NCBI GenBank assembly: GCA_017163975.1 | Contig: JAFFSR010000397.1 | Location: forward strand, 494,501 to 558,500 | Reading direction: 5' to 3' | Length of the DNA: 64,000 nt | Source: Anastatus disparis | Lineage: Eukaryota > Arthropoda > Insecta > Hymenoptera > Eupelmidae | Shown here: piece by piece, positions 15,790 to 53,200 of the stretch | Numbering within the stretch: the stretch's first letter is position 1 | Layout of the letters: each line of letters begins with the position of its first letter | Program-made: the position numbers and the translations under genes | Notes under the pieces: generated by a model | Databases searched by the model: none | What the model was told of the DNA's origin: nothing | The model's input: only the letters and a program-made list of their open reading frames with translations

Positions 15790-17800
15790 TTCCTATGTTT
15801 TAAATTCCCGGTCAAAAAAGGTTAGCTATAAAATATAGCTAAAAAAATAGTTAAAAAAATAGTTAAATATATAGCTATATCGAGCTGTTTTTACAGCTAT
15901 ATCGATGTGTTTTTTTAGCTCTTTTTTATAGTTAAAAATGTACTTAATTTTATAGTTAATAATTTCGTTATCTACCGAAAATATTAATAGCTACCTTTTC
16001 AACTATATTTTATAGCTATTATTATAGTTAAAAAAACACTTAAATTTTTAGTGTATTTATTACAATATATTAATAGCTAGATATTTAACTATACTTTATA
16101 GCTGAAAATAAATGGTTTTTTAGATATTCTTTATCGTTGAAAATATACCTAAATTTTTAGTTGATAATTTGTTTATTACTCATAGATATTTAGCTGAAAA
16201 AACATGAATATTGCTATAATATAAATGAATATAGCTGTATTTTACATATATTTTTAGCTGTTTTTATAGATGCTTTTTTTTGACCGAGAACAGCTGAAAA
16301 TATAACTGTAATTTCAGCTGTATTTTTAGCTGTTTTTTAGCTATATTTTTAACAATTTTTTTCAGCTAAACATTATAAGAGTAGCTTTCAGATATACTCG
16401 AGTTTATTTATATTGTCCTTCCCTATCTTCGCTGTAAATTGATTAAACTATACATACACTAAATCTAACTAGGAGAGTATCAGACCTCCGGATCACGGAT
16501 TTTGCTCAAACTTTGTGATAAGTTTTTAGATGTCAAAATATGAAAGGAAACAGAATTTTAGACCCCATCGCTCAATATTTCCCTAGTTACAGGCAATTAA
16601 AGAATATCACTAAAAAAGTTACTAGATTTTCAAACGCATATAGTTCCTTAGCATTGATAGCTAGAAGCTTATACCTTTTTTTAAATGAAAGCTAAGCTCA
16701 AATCCTTTCGAAATAGTAGTTATAGCATGTAAAAATATTATTTTTTCCCAAAGTTATAGCGTGATAAACATTGGACCTGATTTTTCTTTTTAAAACATTA
16801 ATTAATAAAAAAAGCTGAAATTGGGTCTAATGTTTATTACGCTATAACTTTGGGAAAAAATAATATTTTTACATGCTATAACTACTATTTCGAAAGGATT
16901 TGAGCTTAGCTTTCATTTAAAAAAAGGTATAAGCTTCTAGCTATCAATGCTAAGGAACTATATGCGTTTGAAAATCTAGTAACTTTTTTAGTGATATTCT
17001 TTAATTGCCTGTAACTAGGGAAATATTGAGCGTTGGGGTCTAAAATTCTGTTTCCTTTCATATTTTGACATCTTAAAACTTATCACAAAGTTTGAGCAAA
17101 ATCCGTGATCCGGAGGTCTGATACTCTCCTAGTAAGTAATAATGTCCCTGGGGTCGCTAGAAAACACGCACGCATTTTTTAGTAACGGTAAGATAGATCG
17201 GTCTTATATACAAAGTGTACTCAACTCTCACCACTTGCGGGAGTTGGACACAAATTTCAACGAGTCAAAACAGCTATATTTTAAGCTTAATTTTTAGCTA
17301 ATTTTTTTAGCTAAACGTTTTTGACGCACTTTGTATATAAGACCGATCCATCTTACCGTTACTAAAAAATGCGCGCGTGTTTTCTACGACCCCAGGGACA
17401 TTATTACTTAGATTTAGTGTATGTATAGGTTAATCAATTTACAGCGAAGGTAGGGAAGGACAATATAAATAAATTCGAGTATATCTGAAAGCTACTCTAA
17501 TAATGTTTAGCTAAAAAAATTGTTAAAAATATAGCTAAAAAACAGCTAAAAATACAGCTGAAATTACAGTTATATTTTCAGCTGTTCTCGGTCAAAAAAA
17601 ACATCTATAAAAACAGCTAAAAATATATGTAAAATACAGCTATATTTATTTATATTATAGCAATATTTATGTTTTTTCAGCTAAATATCTATGAGTAATA
17701 ACCAAATTATCAACTAAAAATTTAGGTATATTTTCAACGATAAAGAATATCTAAAAAACCATTTATATTCAGCTATAAAGTATAGTGCCCTTCATTGACC
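15790..17800. repeat. 2-kb palindrome built of AGCTATA/TAGCTA units
   Basis: The left arm (about 15800-16465) and right arm (about 17402-17800) mirror each other, e.g. GAGTAGCTTTCAGATATACT versus AGTATATCTGAAAGCTACTC and AGCTGTTTTTATAGATG versus CATCTATAAAAACAGCT. Inside is a second stem: GTCCCTGGGGTCG...TTTTTTAGTAACGGTAAGAT at 17150 mirrored at 17335-17400. Short TTTAGCTAT-type units make up the arms. A younger MITE (16469-17132) splits the left arm. No ORF. Confidence 0.8.
16469..17132. mobile_element. Palindromic MITE with TAA target, nested
   Basis: CTAGGAGAGTATCAGACCTC at the left and GAGGTCTGATACTCTCCTAG at the right; the whole element is a near-perfect palindrome with its centre near 16800. 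It is flanked by TAA (16466-16468, 17133-17135). The unoccupied site survives in the opposite arm of the host palindrome (about 17400-17425, CATACACTAAATCTAAGTAA in reverse complement). A 3-bp TWA-type target is typical of PIF/Harbinger elements. Relatives: 49944-50338 and 56072-56205. Confidence 0.87.
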
Positions 17801-26119: not shown

Positions 26120-27184
26120 TTAATTTCTTTTGCATTTTCTAACCATTCCATTTTTTTTTGCCAGTCGAAAAACTTCTAACTCATCCTTGCGGATAACAAG
26201 AATGTTAATCGACGGAGTATATTTTGATACGTGAGTGGCGAAATTTTCAGCGTTTCTTATAAAATCTGCACTCTTCTTAGACAGATTATGCGTGGTAGCA
26301 TAATGTTTAACTAAACCACCAATACCATCACAAGCGCCTTTACCATGACCTGTTGCAGAAAAAAGCCATTTTCTGTTTACTTTTGAGTTTTGAAGCTCAT
26401 AGAATTGATATCTATTTTTAAAATGACTGGCAGCTCCATCGGAAATGGTTATGATTTCATCAAGATCTTGCGTAATATGTTTTTGTTTTAAGTTATCGAT
26501 AATTAAATTTATAGCCATTAGGGCATGAGACGAATCATGTTTAATAACGTCAGAGACGGTGACATAACTGACTGTTTTATCATTTCCAAAATAGCATACC
26601 GACGTAAATATTGATATTTGGTTTTTACTCCAATGATAGCTTTGAATTTTATTTTGAAGCAGAACTGTCCGATTTTCTGCAAAATCGACATGAACAACTA
26701 ATTGGAAGTCATTATTTTTCGCTAAAAGTTGAACCTCTTTAATTGCTATACGTTGAATTTCTTTTACCAATTTATGAGCTCTTACAGTGAGAGCGCGCTC
26801 TCTCAACTCTATTAAGAAATTTTCAATTGTGCTAGTTTTATTCAGTAAATTTGATTTTTCCCAAACACCATAAATTATTTCTTCATATAAATCTTCTTCT
26901 GTCAAAGAAATTACTTGTGAATCAATAGAATCGCCAATGGGACATTCTTTACATTCTCTTAGTACACATTTCATATCATCTTTTGAACAAAAAAGTGAAG
27001 AACATATTTTTAATTCCAAATCTGCAATGTCTTGTTTATTCTCTTTTTTATAATTATTCAAAGCATCTAACATAAGTTTAAGATTCTCACAGTAAACGCA
27101 AAGACACGAATCGGTGGGTGGATGTGGTATAACCCACTTCGGTCTTAAAGCGTAGAATGTTGATTTACCAATTTTTGTTTTCAT
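26120..27184 (-). CDS. Transposase-like protein, C-terminal ORF (354 aa)
   Basis: I recognise this as the widespread invertebrate uncharacterised family with the blocks ALRPKWV and CLCVYCENLKLMLDAL near the N terminus, VVHVDFAENRTVL at about residue 165, ITISDGAASHFKNRYQF at about 245 and FSATGHGKGACDGIGGLVKH at about 280. The Asp residues of DFAEN, SDGA and CDG are candidates for a DDD/E RNase H-like catalytic triad; that assignment is inference. The location between long inverted repeats supports a transposase role, cutting and joining element ends in the nucleus. The ATG at 27184 overlaps the stop of the upstream ORF by 4 bases (ATGA), but conserved family sequence (NPEM before KTKIGK) begins upstream of this ATG. 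The real protein therefore probably starts in the upstream ORF. No internal stop. Confidence 0.8.
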   Translation of the reverse strand: MKTKIGKSTFYALRPKWVIPHPPTDSCLCVYCENLKLMLDALNNYKKENKQDIADLELKICSSLFCSKDDMKCVLRECKECPIGDSIDSQVISLTEEDLYEEIIYGVWEKSNLLNKTSTIENFLIELRERALTVRAHKLVKEIQRIAIKEVQLLAKNNDFQLVVHVDFAENRTVLLQNKIQSYHWSKNQISIFTSVCYFGNDKTVSYVTVSDVIKHDSSHALMAINLIIDNLKQKHITQDLDEIITISDGAASHFKNRYQFYELQNSKVNRKWLFSATGHGKGACDGIGGLVKHYATTHNLSKKSADFIRNAENFATHVSKYTPSINILVIRKDELEVFRLAKKNGMVRKCKRN

Positions 27185-27981
27185 TTCAGGATTTTCGTCT
27201 TTAAATAATTGTCTTTTATACTTCGCGTAAGAAATCGTTTGACTTTTTTAGTTTTTATACCATTTTCTTTGATAGATACTGTGTCGCTTTTATTTGCACT
27301 TTGACGAGAACAATTAAAATCATCGTTCAGATAATAATCGTTTACTTTCATTACAATTTCACTATCCAAAGAATGGCCACAATAGTTATCAGACTGCAAG
27401 TAAATTTTTTTATTATTTACCAATGATCGTGCTTGATTATCTAATGCAATTTTAATATTCTCAAGCCATTTATCATTTGTTTTACATTCATTATTTTCAT
27501 TCAATGCGGGCAAATCCGTTATATCGTAGACTTTCATCATTTTACTTGCTATTTGTGAATCAAATGCATCGTTTATTTGTTTTCTTTTTCGGAGAGCATA
27601 AGATTCTCGCATCTTGATATTGATACTTTGAGGCATTTTAATTGGTGAAATGTTTAATTTCAAATTACTTGAAGTCTCGTTGAGCTGTTCTACCACAGCC
27701 TCACTATGAATAAAATCTTCCGAAGATTGTTGACTGCTTGAAGTCGATGAAATAGGCGCATTTTTCACTTCATCTAATAATATTTTGTAACACGAAGGGC
27801 ATACTTTATCTTCTCTAGAGAAAGAAGTATTTGGATACAAGCGCTTCAAAGACTCCGTTAGATCACCTAATTCTCTAAGCGGACTTTTGGAGCAATCATA
27901 AACAACTTTTTTGTACCTTTCTTTTAAATCCTTGCACTTCATTTTAACAATCAGTGATGCCATCATTGATATTCTGTTCAA
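27181..27981 (-). CDS. Transposase-like protein, N-terminal ORF (266 aa)
   Basis: This minus-strand frame sits immediately 5' of the transposase ORF. It contains a Cys pair (KVCPSCYKILLDEV) near residue 70, a Ser/Gln-rich linker (SSTSSSQQSSEDF), a basic word YALRKRKQ and a C-terminal basic segment VKRFLTRSIKDNY. In the family this last segment is followed directly by the ...KIGxSxFxxLRPKWV block, which here lies in the -1 frame. The last eight codons after the shift point are therefore probably not part of the functional protein. It may be the DNA-binding half of the transposase. Whether the shift is programmed or a disabling 1-bp indel cannot be decided here. Confidence 0.72.
   Translation of the reverse strand: MNRISMMASLIVKMKCKDLKERYKKVVYDCSKSPLRELGDLTESLKRLYPNTSFSREDKVCPSCYKILLDEVKNAPISSTSSSQQSSEDFIHSEAVVEQLNETSSNLKLNISPIKMPQSINIKMRESYALRKRKQINDAFDSQIASKMMKVYDITDLPALNENNECKTNDKWLENIKIALDNQARSLVNNKKIYLQSDNYCGHSLDSEIVMKVNDYYLNDDFNCSRQSANKSDTVSIKENGIKTKKVKRFLTRSIKDNYLKTKILK
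27199..27205 (-). promoter_or_regulatory. Candidate -1 frameshift heptamer TTTAAAG
   Basis: Read on the minus strand in the frame of the upstream ORF, the bases are T TTA AAG, which fits the X XXY YYZ slippery pattern. A -1 slip here leads exactly into the frame of the downstream ORF (next codons GAC GAA AAT CCT GAA ATG). A GTGGGT/ACCCAC stem (27114-27119 and 27132-27137) lies about 60 nt downstream, farther than the usual 5-9 nt spacer, so a stimulatory structure is not evident. Confidence 0.4.
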
Positions 27982-47263: not shown

Positions 47264-50200
47264 ATGAATTTTACAACAACTGAAAAAAATTTGTTGTTTA
47301 ATATTTTTAATAAATATTTATCTACAATAATCAACAAGAGTCGTTCATCGCTGATGGTGACTGCGAAGGAGAAGGCGTGGGCAGCTATTTTTGAAGAATT
47401 CAACCAACAAGTTAGTGAAGATCGTAAAGTAAGTATCAGAAATTAAAACTTCTTTATTTTTGTTGCAGTCAACTAAAAAAACATATTTTCTATTTTAGAG
47501 ATCTAATGATCAATTAATAAGATTCTTCTACAATCACAAAAGTGATGCAAAATTAAAAGATAATTTAAAGATTGATCGTAAGTACATAAATTTTAGTATT
47601 AAACTAGCTCTCGACAGTGGCCCTTCAGGGCGCTGTGGCTCGCCTCTCGGGCCTTGCATCACGAAGCGATCGAGTGAGGCACGACCGGATACACTCGCAC
47701 TTCGTACTCGCCCTTGAATTTACTTAAAGTATAAAGAAAATAAACGATTTTTTTTAAATCAAATAGTTTAAGTTTTCATTCGATCTGAATTATTGGGTAC
47801 CTTTATTATTGGGTCACCCGAATTATTCTTACATGAAATAAGTTAAAATAATAATACAAATGAACGTTCTTATTTTTAAAAAAAATTGTTGGAACCGTTT
47901 TAAAATGGTAATCCTTTTAGAGGTTAAAAAAATGATTTTTTGGTAATAATTTGAAAAAAACAAGTTTCGAAAAAAAGTTATAGAGAAAAGAAAGATACAT
48001 CTTTTTAATATTACAAATTTTTTTAAAATTCATATTTACTAAGTTATTACTAAAAACGTTCAATTTCAATATTTCTCATGAAAAATATTAACTTTAGAAA
48101 AAAATGTATGATATCAAAAAGATTTATTTTTTTTATATTCTATAAATTTAATTCTATATACTTTTTGAAAAAATTCGTTTTTTGACCTTTAAAAGGGCTA
48201 TTATTTTAAAATGGCTCTAACGATTTTTTTAAAAATATAAACGTTTACTTGTATTATTATTTTTAAAAATTTCCCGTTGGAATCATTCAGATCGTATAAA
48301 AACTTGTGGAGAAAATTCATAAATTTGATTTCTCACATACATACATCCATACTTACATTTTACAGAAGGCTTGTAATGACTTTATTTTGCAATGAAAATA
48401 ATTGTTTTATCATAATATTACATATTTTTAAGGGTTACATTTTTCGCGATGTCGACAATATAAGACTGCCCTATAGCGGTCGTGCCTAAAAAACGTATAT
48501 TTTATTTTAAAGAAATAATTATGAATATTAATTTTGATTTTTTTAAATTTAGTTATTAAATGAAAATTTGAGATTTTTATATGGTTTGAAATCATTTACA
48601 ATCTTGTTTGTTTCCATTGCAAAAACAAATGCGGATGCACATATAGAAAAAGAAGAAATGAATTCAAAGATAAGGAATGCCGAACATCCTACTGGACCTC
48701 CTGCTATACCTCCTACTGAGCCTTCTACCATGCTTACTACTGAGCCTCCTACCATAACTCCTACTAAGCCTTCTACTATACATACTGCTGAACCTCCTAT
48801 CGTACCTCCTACTGAACCTCCTACTAATCTTCCTATCATACCTACTGCTGAATCTTCTACTATACCTCCTACTGAGCCTCCTATTAATCTTCCTACCATA
48901 CCTACTACTGAACCTCCTACTATACCGCCCACTGAACCTCCTACCATACCTCCTACTAATCTTCCTACCATACCTTCTACTAACTCTTCTATCAAACTTC
49001 TTGCAGAACCAATTGTACAAAAAACTATAGAACAAAAAAGTACGTAACAATATATACTATTTTTGTAAGTTAAATGAAAAAAATAATAATTTGGACTCAT
49101 CATTTATATATAATTATTCCATTTTTATTTTAGATGATATAAAGCTCTCGAAAGCAGGGTCTAGTTCGAAACTTGAAAATCAGTGTGGTATGTGAAGTTA
49201 ATTTTCATTTTTTATAATTTTATATTTCATTGATTAAAACCGAAAAATTTATAAAGATAAATCCTACGAAAGCTATTAGTTATTTTTGATACTAATGCAA
49301 GAAAATGATTTTAACGTCGTGTGGATGTTAGCAGCTGAGCGAAATAAAGGTGAAAAGATCACACAAAGTTAAAATTACTTTCCATCTCGAGTATCGAACA
49401 CAATATTTTCGTATGACGTGCAAAAAGTAGTATTACCTGTGCGTAGGTCTGGTACTAAATAAAACTAACATACTCATAATATATTATATTTTAAAAATAT
49501 ACGAAATTGTGTATATTTACTGTGACAAAGCATATTTAATTGCCATATATGCGCCAACAAATTTTAATTTTTAACACATGTTTATATATTACATTTATTT
49601 AAATGTAACTTTGAAAAAATTTTCTGAAATGCAAACAAAATTATCTAAAAATACATCTTTGAGACTTCTAAATTTCATGATACATTAGATTATATGCAAT
49701 TCTTTAATTTATTTTTAATCGTTATAATTTCAAATTATAAATTTTTAAGTTTATTTAGTTATGAATCAAAGTATTTTATTGCTACAATAAAGTTGTTTTT
49801 CTGATTTGTAACCTTGTAAATTTTTGGTAGTTGTATACATTTTTGTCTTGTGTTATTTTGTATTTTATTAAATTCATTTTTTAATTATTCATAACAATCA
49901 CAATAATTTAAAGATACACAAGTAAAATTTTGTACGAGACTTACCAGGAGAGTGTCAACGTTTCGGATGACCGATTTTGCCCAAATTTAAATTATACGAC
50001 GACATATAAACATGCAGAAAGCCAAAATTTCAGACTCCAACGCTCAATATTTCTCTAGTTATAGGCAGTCAAAGAAAGTCACTGAAAAAGTTACTATATT
50101 TTCAAACGCTTATAATTCTTCAGCCTTAACAGAAGCTTTAATCTCTTTTTAAATAAAAGCTGAGTTGAAATCCTTTCGAAATAACATTTATAGTATATCA

Positions 50201-53200
50201 AAATATTATTTTTCAAAAGCTACAGCATAATAAAAATTAGATCTAAATTAACTTTTTAAAACATTAATTAATAATAAAAGTTAATATAGTCTAATTTATA
50301 TTATGCTGTAACTTTTCGAAAAAAATAATATTTTGATATAGGGGAAAGTAGGACAAAACGGGATACTTTTCGAAAGTCGTTTAATAATTTGGTGGATTCC
50401 GCGTACACCTTTACGGTCTTTACGTATTACCCCACACCTTTATTTATCTTTCTTTCCTTACAGTCTTTTTCCCAACTAGCCCCAAACCCACCCCATTCCG
50501 CATTCGCCCGGGGTTATGCCCGTGAAGAAGGGAAAACCTGTAGGCAAACCCAGTGGGGTAAATCCTTAGGAAAACCTTCTCCGGAATGGGTCGGTGTATA
50601 TAGCAGATTCGGTATTTGATACCCTTGGTACAGGATACCGAATAGCCGTATCTGCCACACCTCCCGCTCGCATTGTCATGTGGTTAGCACGCCCAAGCGG
50701 CCGTCACACGAAGCAAGGTGCACTAAGTAGCGGGGTTTCATTGAATTTTTGGTTCCCTTGCGGTCACCCATCATCCAACTACTAACCATGCTCAGTGCTG
50801 CTTAACTTCGCAGACCGCCTGGCGCGCGCCGAACCACTCGGCCAATGCGTCGGTCGAAAGTCGTTTAATAAAAAAGAGGTAAATTAATATTTATACCACC
50901 TAATACAATATTTGTTTTTAGTTTACATCTAAATAACTAAAAATTAAGCGAGCTAGTCGAAAAACATTAGCAAAAAATATTAAAATTTAAGAAAGGTATT
51001 CCATTTTATCCTACAACAAAAAAGTTGGGGCAAAACGGGATACTTATCTTATTCTTTCCAAAATAAATTCCAAACAATTTTTGTAGTCAAGATATTATAA
51101 AAAAATAAAAAAAAAAAACATTTAATATAGAAATTTTTATTATCAATTATAAATTAAACATTTTTTTCATAAAATTGATACATTTTCTATGTTCTATAAA
51201 AAAATTGATTTTTAATCAATAAATAAATTTAATATAATTCCCACACAGCATGTAAGGTTACAGTGCAAGGTTGCTGTAACCTTTTTATGTCCCTTGCACA
51301 TATCTTGTAGCAATGTTTCATGAAATCTTGCTGCAAGGTTGCTATGAAAGGTTCTTGCAAGATTATATGAAACCTTGCTGCAAGTTTGCTGCAAGATTGC
51401 TATGAAAGGTTCTTGCAAGATTATATGAAACATTGCTGCAAGTTTGCTGCAAGGTTTCAATGCAAGGTTGCTACCCTATTAAAAAAAATCACGTGAATAA
51501 TTTAAATAAATTATTCACGTGATTTTTGTTTCATTTCATCACGTGAATTATTCACGTAAATTATTCTCGTGAATTTTACCTTTTTAATATTAGAAGTATT
51601 TCAATAAATATAATCTCTCAAATCAAAAGTATTTAAATTAATATGATTTCGTAAATTAAAAGCAATATGATTTTTCAAATAAATTATGAGTTACTAGAAA
51701 AAATTTGTGTTTCATTTCATCACGTGAATTATTTACGTAAATTATTCATGTGAATAATTCACGTAAATAATTCACATAATGAAATAAAAATCAGTTTTTT
51801 TAGTGATTTTTAATTTATTTGAAAGATTACATTAATTTAAATACTTTCAATTTACAAAATTATATTAATTTAAATACTTTTGATTTGAGAGATTATATCT
51901 ATTGAAATACATCTAATATTAAAAATATAAAATTCACGTGAATAATTTACGTGAATAATTCACGTGATGAAATGAAACAATCACGTGAATAATTTATTTA
52001 AATTATTCACGTGATTTTTTTCAATAGTGAGGCTAAAATTAGCACTTTTCGTTTTCCGTGCCGGGAGCAAAAGTGGTATTTTTAGCCCACTGTTAAAAAA
52101 AAATTATAATTTTTGCAAGTTCCGTACTCTCTAGTTTATTTAATATTTCTTTGAAAATAAATAATGCATCAAGTGAAAAATAACAAATTCTAATAACAAA
52201 AATGATTATAATTTTTTTAATTATTTCTATTACTATTAATTAGCATCATTATTAGTATATCAGTCTATTATTATTTTTATTAAAAATTAATAATTGATCA
52301 AATATATAACAAATTCAATATAAAAAAAATTATAATTTTAGCAAGTGCCACACTCTTTAGTTTCTATACATATAGTGGAAGCATAGCTTCTGTCGGCCAG
52401 TCCCCACGACTGCCACATTTTTTTATCTAGATTACTACACGATTTATGAGCCCACTGATAGTATATAAATAAGCTATCCCGTTTTGCCCTAAGGTGAAAA
52501 AAAAATTAATTCTGAATTTTTTCTAATTACAAGTAAAATTATACATCAGAACTATGAAAAACTTTTAATTATAATCAAAATTTAAAAGTTTATGTGCTTA
52601 CTGAATGTAAATGTTGCTTATGAAAAGATTAAGCGCACTATGATTACTACGAAAGAATTGGAAACTCAAATTCAAAATCTTTTGACTTCCGCCAAAGTCA
52701 ACGCTAGGGTTGTTGACATACTAATCATATAGAAAATGATAGTAAAAATATTTGCAACGAAATTCTATGGCTATTATGTGTCTCTACACTTTCGCTCCAA
52801 GGGGTCGTGGGTTCGATTCCCGGTGAAAACACTTGAGATTTTTTCTCTCGTTATTTCATCGGAAAAAGTATCCTCGACTCTCAAAAAAAATCCGATCTCA
52901 TTGATTATCGGTGGATTGTTGGTCACAGAAGTGTCCGATCATCCATTGGTAGTCAAAGTTTTCGGTATGATGTATCTGACAGTCTAGCCTGGGTAATGTG
53001 GTAAACGGGTACCAGGTTGGACTCCCTCGATATCATCATATTAAAAAGAGTTAACATATAGAGGACAATATCCTCATATATTAACTTTTTTAAAAAAAAA
53101 AAAAAAAAAAAGTGGCTATTATGTAGATGGCACCAGTAGCAGCCGAGAAATCGAGGTATCCCGTTTTACCTCGGTATCCCGTTTTGCCCGAGTTTCCCCT

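Follow-up and report, generated by a model that had tools for sequence, protein, structure and literature searches.

SINE heads are grouped by their origin from tRNA, 5S, 7SL or snRNA, and an element on the minus strand of the 64,000-nt stretch of Anastatus disparis DNA analyzed here (the window) raises the question of whether a single head can be built from two of these classes. A sequence-only reading of the window had proposed that it can, and that a fused tRNA/5S head may mark a distinct SINE family. Our comparison of the element with the host's own tRNA and 5S genes and with its other genomic copies supports this proposal, the head being tRNA-like over nt 1-36 and 5S-like over nt 37-91.

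Anatomy of the element and its insertion site

The element occupies 50388..50853 (466 bp, minus strand) and is bounded by an 18-bp target-site duplication, whose 5' copy (TTATTAAACGACTTTCGA on the element strand, 50854..50871) is identical at 18/18 positions to the 3' copy (50370..50387), just as had been claimed. It begins with a tRNA-Ser-like third of the head (nt 1-36, 50818..50853), which contains the tRNA-type A box TGGCCGAGTGG (nt 10-20, 50834..50844). Behind this third lies a 5S-rRNA-like promoter stretch with box A, IE and box C (50760..50817), the names and limits of which we take to be those of Xenopus 5S. This stretch corresponds to nt 40-94 of the host's own 5S plus a 3-nt insertion, and the alignment extends to 50751. 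The alignment of the copies further delimits a conserved central domain at 50491..50593 with complementary ends (ACCCATTCCG and CGGAATGGG). The 3' terminus reads GGAATCCACCAAA (50388..50400), while most other copies end in a T/A-rich tail followed by the target duplication.

At gathering score, Rfam reported nothing across the window and hence no 5S, and ARAGORN predicted zero tRNAs in it. With a relaxed Rfam 5S search, two of six copies scored 19.8-20.7 bits (cut-off 38) and the other four, including the window-type copy L009, gave no score. RNA folding of the window head yielded an uninformative z of -0.90.

Copy L009 is 100% identical to the window SINE, lies in surroundings that are 99.4% identical and shows the same target duplication. 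L010 carries a 98% identical SINE with a nearly identical target duplication, and the 2.3 kb compared, SINE included, are 96.6% alike. Rather than having inserted independently, the copies in the window, L009 and L010 result from segmental duplication or represent partly unmerged haplotypes. As target duplication and surroundings are common to them, they go back to one insertion that is older than the duplication. The view of this copy as a real, fairly recent insertion consequently holds in its first part, since the target duplication is real, and only partly in its second: the window copy predates a duplication with copies that are 96.6% alike, whereas other copies differ by only 0-0.7% from their consensus. 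L011 and L012 likewise lie at one common site.

The region 48885-52842 of the window has a duplicate on contig C4 (99.4%) and a third version on C30, compared over part of its length (96.6%). The duplicate on C4 is devoid of a ~447-bp piece (51528-51974), in which inverted repeats around TCACGTGAATTATTCACGT abound.

Family size and recent amplification

The assembly comprises 939,413,245 bases in 399 contigs. A methyltransferase gene from one sampled stretch of it finds its best named relatives in Copidosoma, Eretmocerus and Phymastichus (67-73% identity, some hits that rank higher carrying no name), and this one gene points to a chalcidoid wasp as the host. We scored 40 of 830 candidates, all of which matched the element (40/40), one being the window copy itself; the 39 others were fetched with their flanks and form the basis of the clustering and of the repeat counts. 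Across the entire assembly, 139 places combine an exact 22-nt head piece with an exact 9-nt piece of the 5S box A 3-33 nt further on (0 for the reversed-pattern control), and an exact 26-nt head piece occurs 134 times, both exact-pattern counts being lower bounds. With at least 139 copies carrying both halves, the element is far from being the single genomic copy that the sequence-only reading had named as fatal to its proposal. Among the matches listed, 85 of 99 comparable head 26-mers have an exact box A in place. Five of the remaining 14 were fetched, and all of them (5/5) proved chimeric and altered in their 5S part, which is badly degraded in L083.

Clustering placed 19/39 copies in a young group, which differ by 0-0.7% from their 437-bp consensus and lie in different flanks; the sole long block common to two of their left flanks is a TA run. 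A middle group of seven copies shows 2.3-5.5% divergence. The remaining copies belong to two duplicated sites or are single, and the nine single copies are 4.6-16.9% away from a joint consensus. The large share of copies within 0.7% of their consensus indicates recent activity of the family. In 20 sampled stretches totalling 200 kb, one of them partly masked, no further copy turned up, the script-sampled locus L048 lying inside the window; therefore, abundance was taken from the pattern counts. Scans of viral contigs for the central domain and for the head gave 0 and 0 matches. Two head copies on contig C283 (positions 627516 and 628474) lie ~0.93 kb apart in opposite orientation, and both show the unusual junction bases CCATC(A/T)TTAAAG.

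A script detected direct repeats of 10-23 bp beside 30/39 copies and none beside the other nine, some of the 30 lying in simple AT-rich flanks (sample GC 28%) and being trivial or doubtful (L027). The second base of the repeat is an A in 28/30 cases, but the flanks are AT-rich. The tails after CCACC consist of runs of T, of A or of mixtures, and TTTT precedes the repeat in 19/30; we infer that the T-runs may be Pol III terminators carried along. The hallmarks of a SINE are thus all present: short dispersed copies, target duplications that vary in length and a 3' tail of retroposon type.

Composition of the head

A Ser/Leu-type A box at the right distance from the 5' end had been claimed for the element, and its nt 10-20 are indeed identical to nt 8-18 of the host's own tRNA-Ser(GCU) (L077), so that a tRNA A box lies close to the 5' end, as in SINE2 elements. 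The match reaches beyond the box. Nt 3-22 agree with nt 1-20 of this tRNA at 17/20 positions in register, including a 13-nt exact block with GACG before it and, after a 1-nt gap, GGCG behind it. Under strict scoring of nt 1-36 of the window against three own Ser/Leu tRNA genes, 1/1000 shuffles was as good; overall, the tRNA score for nt 1-36 was equalled by 0-2/1000 shuffles, the match resting on ~25 nt. Because shuffles can reach these scores at that rate, we regard the tRNA assignment as good, though less overwhelming than the 5S assignment. Nt 23-36 are not clearly tRNA. The three reference genes were fetched from 17 places that carry the A box together with a canonical B box and look like Ser/Leu tRNA genes; as the A box was part of the search pattern, the comparison tests the Ser/Leu family named beforehand, not all tRNAs. 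The first 38 nt are identical across all five lineage consensuses.

Nt 37-91 align without gaps to nt 40-94 of the host's own 5S, with 49/55 identical positions in the young and dup2 consensuses and 50/55 in the mid and old ones. Boxes A, IE and C, which characterize SINE3 elements, are thus present at ~90% identity to own 5S over 55 nt, and under strict scoring 0/300 shuffles were as good in the four consensuses tested. The window lineage aligns to the same 5S positions via its 3-nt insertion. The 5S-like stretch from box A to box C with one such insertion, as described from the window, is therefore present, but the insertion is no family trait: 37/39 fetched copies are without it. It doubles a GAT to GATGAT (50770..50775) and is private to the window lineage, occurring in the window, L009 and L010 alone (2/39 fetched copies), and L034 has one extra base there.

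The 5S reference draws on 47 scored genome matches, all of which lie above the cut-off (47/47) and eight of which were treated as loci. These 5S genes are spread along contigs C4, C260, C328, C240 and C220 over long distances, with either orientation represented, and their tandem runs are short, with four at ~815-bp steps on C4.

An alignment of the first 45 nt to 5S rRNA had been named in advance as the result that would reduce the A box to a coincidence. In the consensus heads, however, nt 1-45 matched own 5S on either strand no better than chance (298/300 shuffles as good for young, mid and old, 149/300 for the window lineage), and the same was true of nt 1-36 (287-298/300 for the young, mid, old and window consensuses). 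The 5S similarity hence does not start at the 5' end of the element, as it would in SINE3, and the junction lies near nt 36/37.

Past 5S nt 94, a continuation of the 5S similarity is weak in the young consensus (5/1000 shuffles as good) and not significant in the mid, old and dup2 consensuses (77, 787 and 242 of 1000, respectively). The score of the window over these 30 nt (3/1000) comes from an out-of-register AACCCCGC, and GGGAACC also continues in register. The block CATTGAGC is common to the old consensus and the host's own 5S and is not exact in the young, mid, window and dup2 consensuses. Since fly and human 5S presumably differ from the host 5S at this block, its sharing hints that the family may have originated in or near the host lineage.

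Element positions equal tRNA positions plus 2 and 5S positions minus 3. Given the tRNA-Ser register of nt 1-36 and the ungapped 5S alignment of nt 37-91, a tRNA 5' third of nearly equal length has taken the place of the 5S 5' third, and these small offsets mean that each promoter keeps its natural spacing from the 5' end. The chimeric nature of the SINE head is well supported. In our view, it is probable that the family carries a length-preserving fused Pol III-type head, in which the first ~36 nt of tRNA-Ser(GCU), or of a SINE descended from this tRNA, replace nt 1-39 of own 5S; the 5S sequence sets in at nt 40 and extends across boxes A, IE and C.

Origin of the fusion and promoter function

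Judging from the sequence, a template switch is a plausible origin of the fusion: a LINE reverse transcriptase copying a 5S-type RNA would have switched near 5S nt 40 to a tRNA-type RNA. Pol III, directed to the internal 5S-type boxes by TFIIIA and TFIIIC, would transcribe the copies, and the tRNA A box, at its normal distance from the start, may aid the placement of TFIIIC. Transcripts would end in the T-runs carried by many copies, and a LINE would insert new copies by target-primed reverse transcription.

A working hybrid promoter is plausible. The tentative idea that the tRNA A box cooperates with the 5S A/IE/C block in a true hybrid promoter we consider possible but rather doubtful. If true, the element would no longer depend on the upstream sequences presumed to be required by retroposed 5S copies, every new copy would be born transcribable, and the laboratory tRNA/5S hybrid genes that exist would have a natural counterpart. 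Retroposed 5S promoters are described as weak owing to their dependence on upstream signals (PMC8010984, PMC3272025). Fusion with a tRNA A box would offer a possible way round this weakness and would represent a natural case of promoter assembly.

It is a serious possibility, falling somewhat short of probable, that the fusion is real but its tRNA third, as a passive relic, does no more than supply the 5' end, with transcription driven by the 5S boxes alone. Besides the presence of boxes A, IE and C, the absence of a canonical B box after the head would fit such a relic: SINE2 elements carry a B box some 30-60 nt behind the A box, but the motif GGTTCRANNC is found in none of the five lineage consensuses, and a genome pattern of the head plus this motif in its canonical form at 20-50 nt gave 0 matches. 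The tRNA part is, however, as conserved as the 5S part, with a mean pairwise difference among 19 representatives of 0.104 (nt 1-36) versus 0.120 (nt 37-91), although shared descent from few source copies could explain this. Across the rest of the element, the values are 0.117 (129-195), 0.217 (196-235), 0.110 (236-346) and 0.151 (381-437), as well as 0.257 in the linker (92-128) and 0.391 in the variable 3' stretch (347-380). Head, second block and central domain are thus similarly conserved, and the stretches between them less so. The consensus fold of the head contains 32 pairs (581/606 cells paired, five pairs changed on both sides) and that of the central domain 24 pairs (439/452, two pairs changed on both sides); as both structures derive from the same alignment and compensatory changes are few, support for the folds is weak.

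A fusion at the DNA level, by gene conversion or recombination between tRNA-head and 5S-head elements, we judge unlikely, albeit well worth weighing against template switching. The host has many 5S genes, which favors such an event, but no tRNA-head relative with a B box, and hence no donor SINE, was detected with the narrow genome pattern of head plus canonical B box. Both registers are kept at the junction, as expected of a switch near the 5' end of an RNA, an outcome with which recombination is also compatible.

In lepidopteran SINE3 families, the sequence ahead of the 5S promoter region is reported to diverge (PMC10886601), and the Anastatus family could in principle be an ordinary 5S-derived SINE with a diverged 5' third and an A box gained by chance or convergence. 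This is improbable, as nt 1-36 and 1-45 resemble own 5S no better than shuffles do, yet the next 55 nt are ~90% identical. A chance A box was dropped as a candidate; the 13-nt exact tRNA-Ser block stands in register, preceded by GACG and followed by GGCG. It is vanishingly improbable that the family is a miniature element of LTR type carrying a small-RNA promoter, and this reading was dropped as well: Cassandra-, Ajax- and Helenus-type elements are described as carrying 5S or tRNA promoters (PMC10886601), but instead of long terminal repeats and a short target duplication of fixed length, as in TRIMs, the aligned copies show no terminal repeat, direct repeats varying between 10 and 23 bp and T/A-rich 3' tails.

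Comparison with known elements

The fused-head family spans two SINE head classes within one 91-nt head, has many young copies and leaves the tRNA and 5S parts as far from the 5' end as they naturally lie. In AmnSINE1, the 5S part comes first and the tRNA-derived part behind it, whereas the Anastatus element places its tRNA third first and is without a canonical B box. Zebrafish SINE3 is 5S-like from its 5' end, and 5S nt 1-39 are missing in Anastatus. AmnSINE1, a member of the DeuSINE superfamily, is summarized as 5S plus a tRNA-derived SINE (PMC6337102).

Among insect SINEs, HaSE3, which was proposed to be a template-switch chimera, and the lepidopteran SINE3 families PxSE4 and PxSE5 resemble the Anastatus element in having 5S boxes A, IE and C (PMC3272025, PMC8010984). 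By their descriptions, they join a 5S head to a tRNA-derived SINE body and tail, whereas the Anastatus head is itself part tRNA and part 5S. The tree-shrew Tu and hagfish SINE1-1_EBu elements are also characterized as chimeric SINEs built from different small-RNA-derived parts, but they join 7SL with tRNA-derived SINEs instead of 5S with tRNA (PMC7245038). Ajax and Cassandra TRIMs are likewise listed as retroelements with 5S-derived promoter sequence (PMC10886601); these are LTR elements, while no LTR was seen in the Anastatus copies. Searches of the open literature yielded no SINE in which a tRNA third precedes 5S boxes A to C in a register-preserving fusion and 0 matches to the literal element sequence; a match may nevertheless be listed in Repbase or SINEBase.

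Other features of the window

Adjoining the 3' side of the SINE, a repeat at 49940-50334 has two inverted copies in the window (16465-16869 and 16732-17137), which are ~75% alike. Two adjacent ORFs of 354 and 266 aa on the minus strand (26120-27981) gave zero Pfam matches at cut-off and are perhaps a mobile element. The 354-aa ORF has relatives in ticks and an ant, and by eye, a look-alike ORF (L055:3053-3904) contains the same KGACDGIGG stretch. At 48568-49047, a repetitive ORF is open on both strands and proline/threonine-rich on the plus strand.
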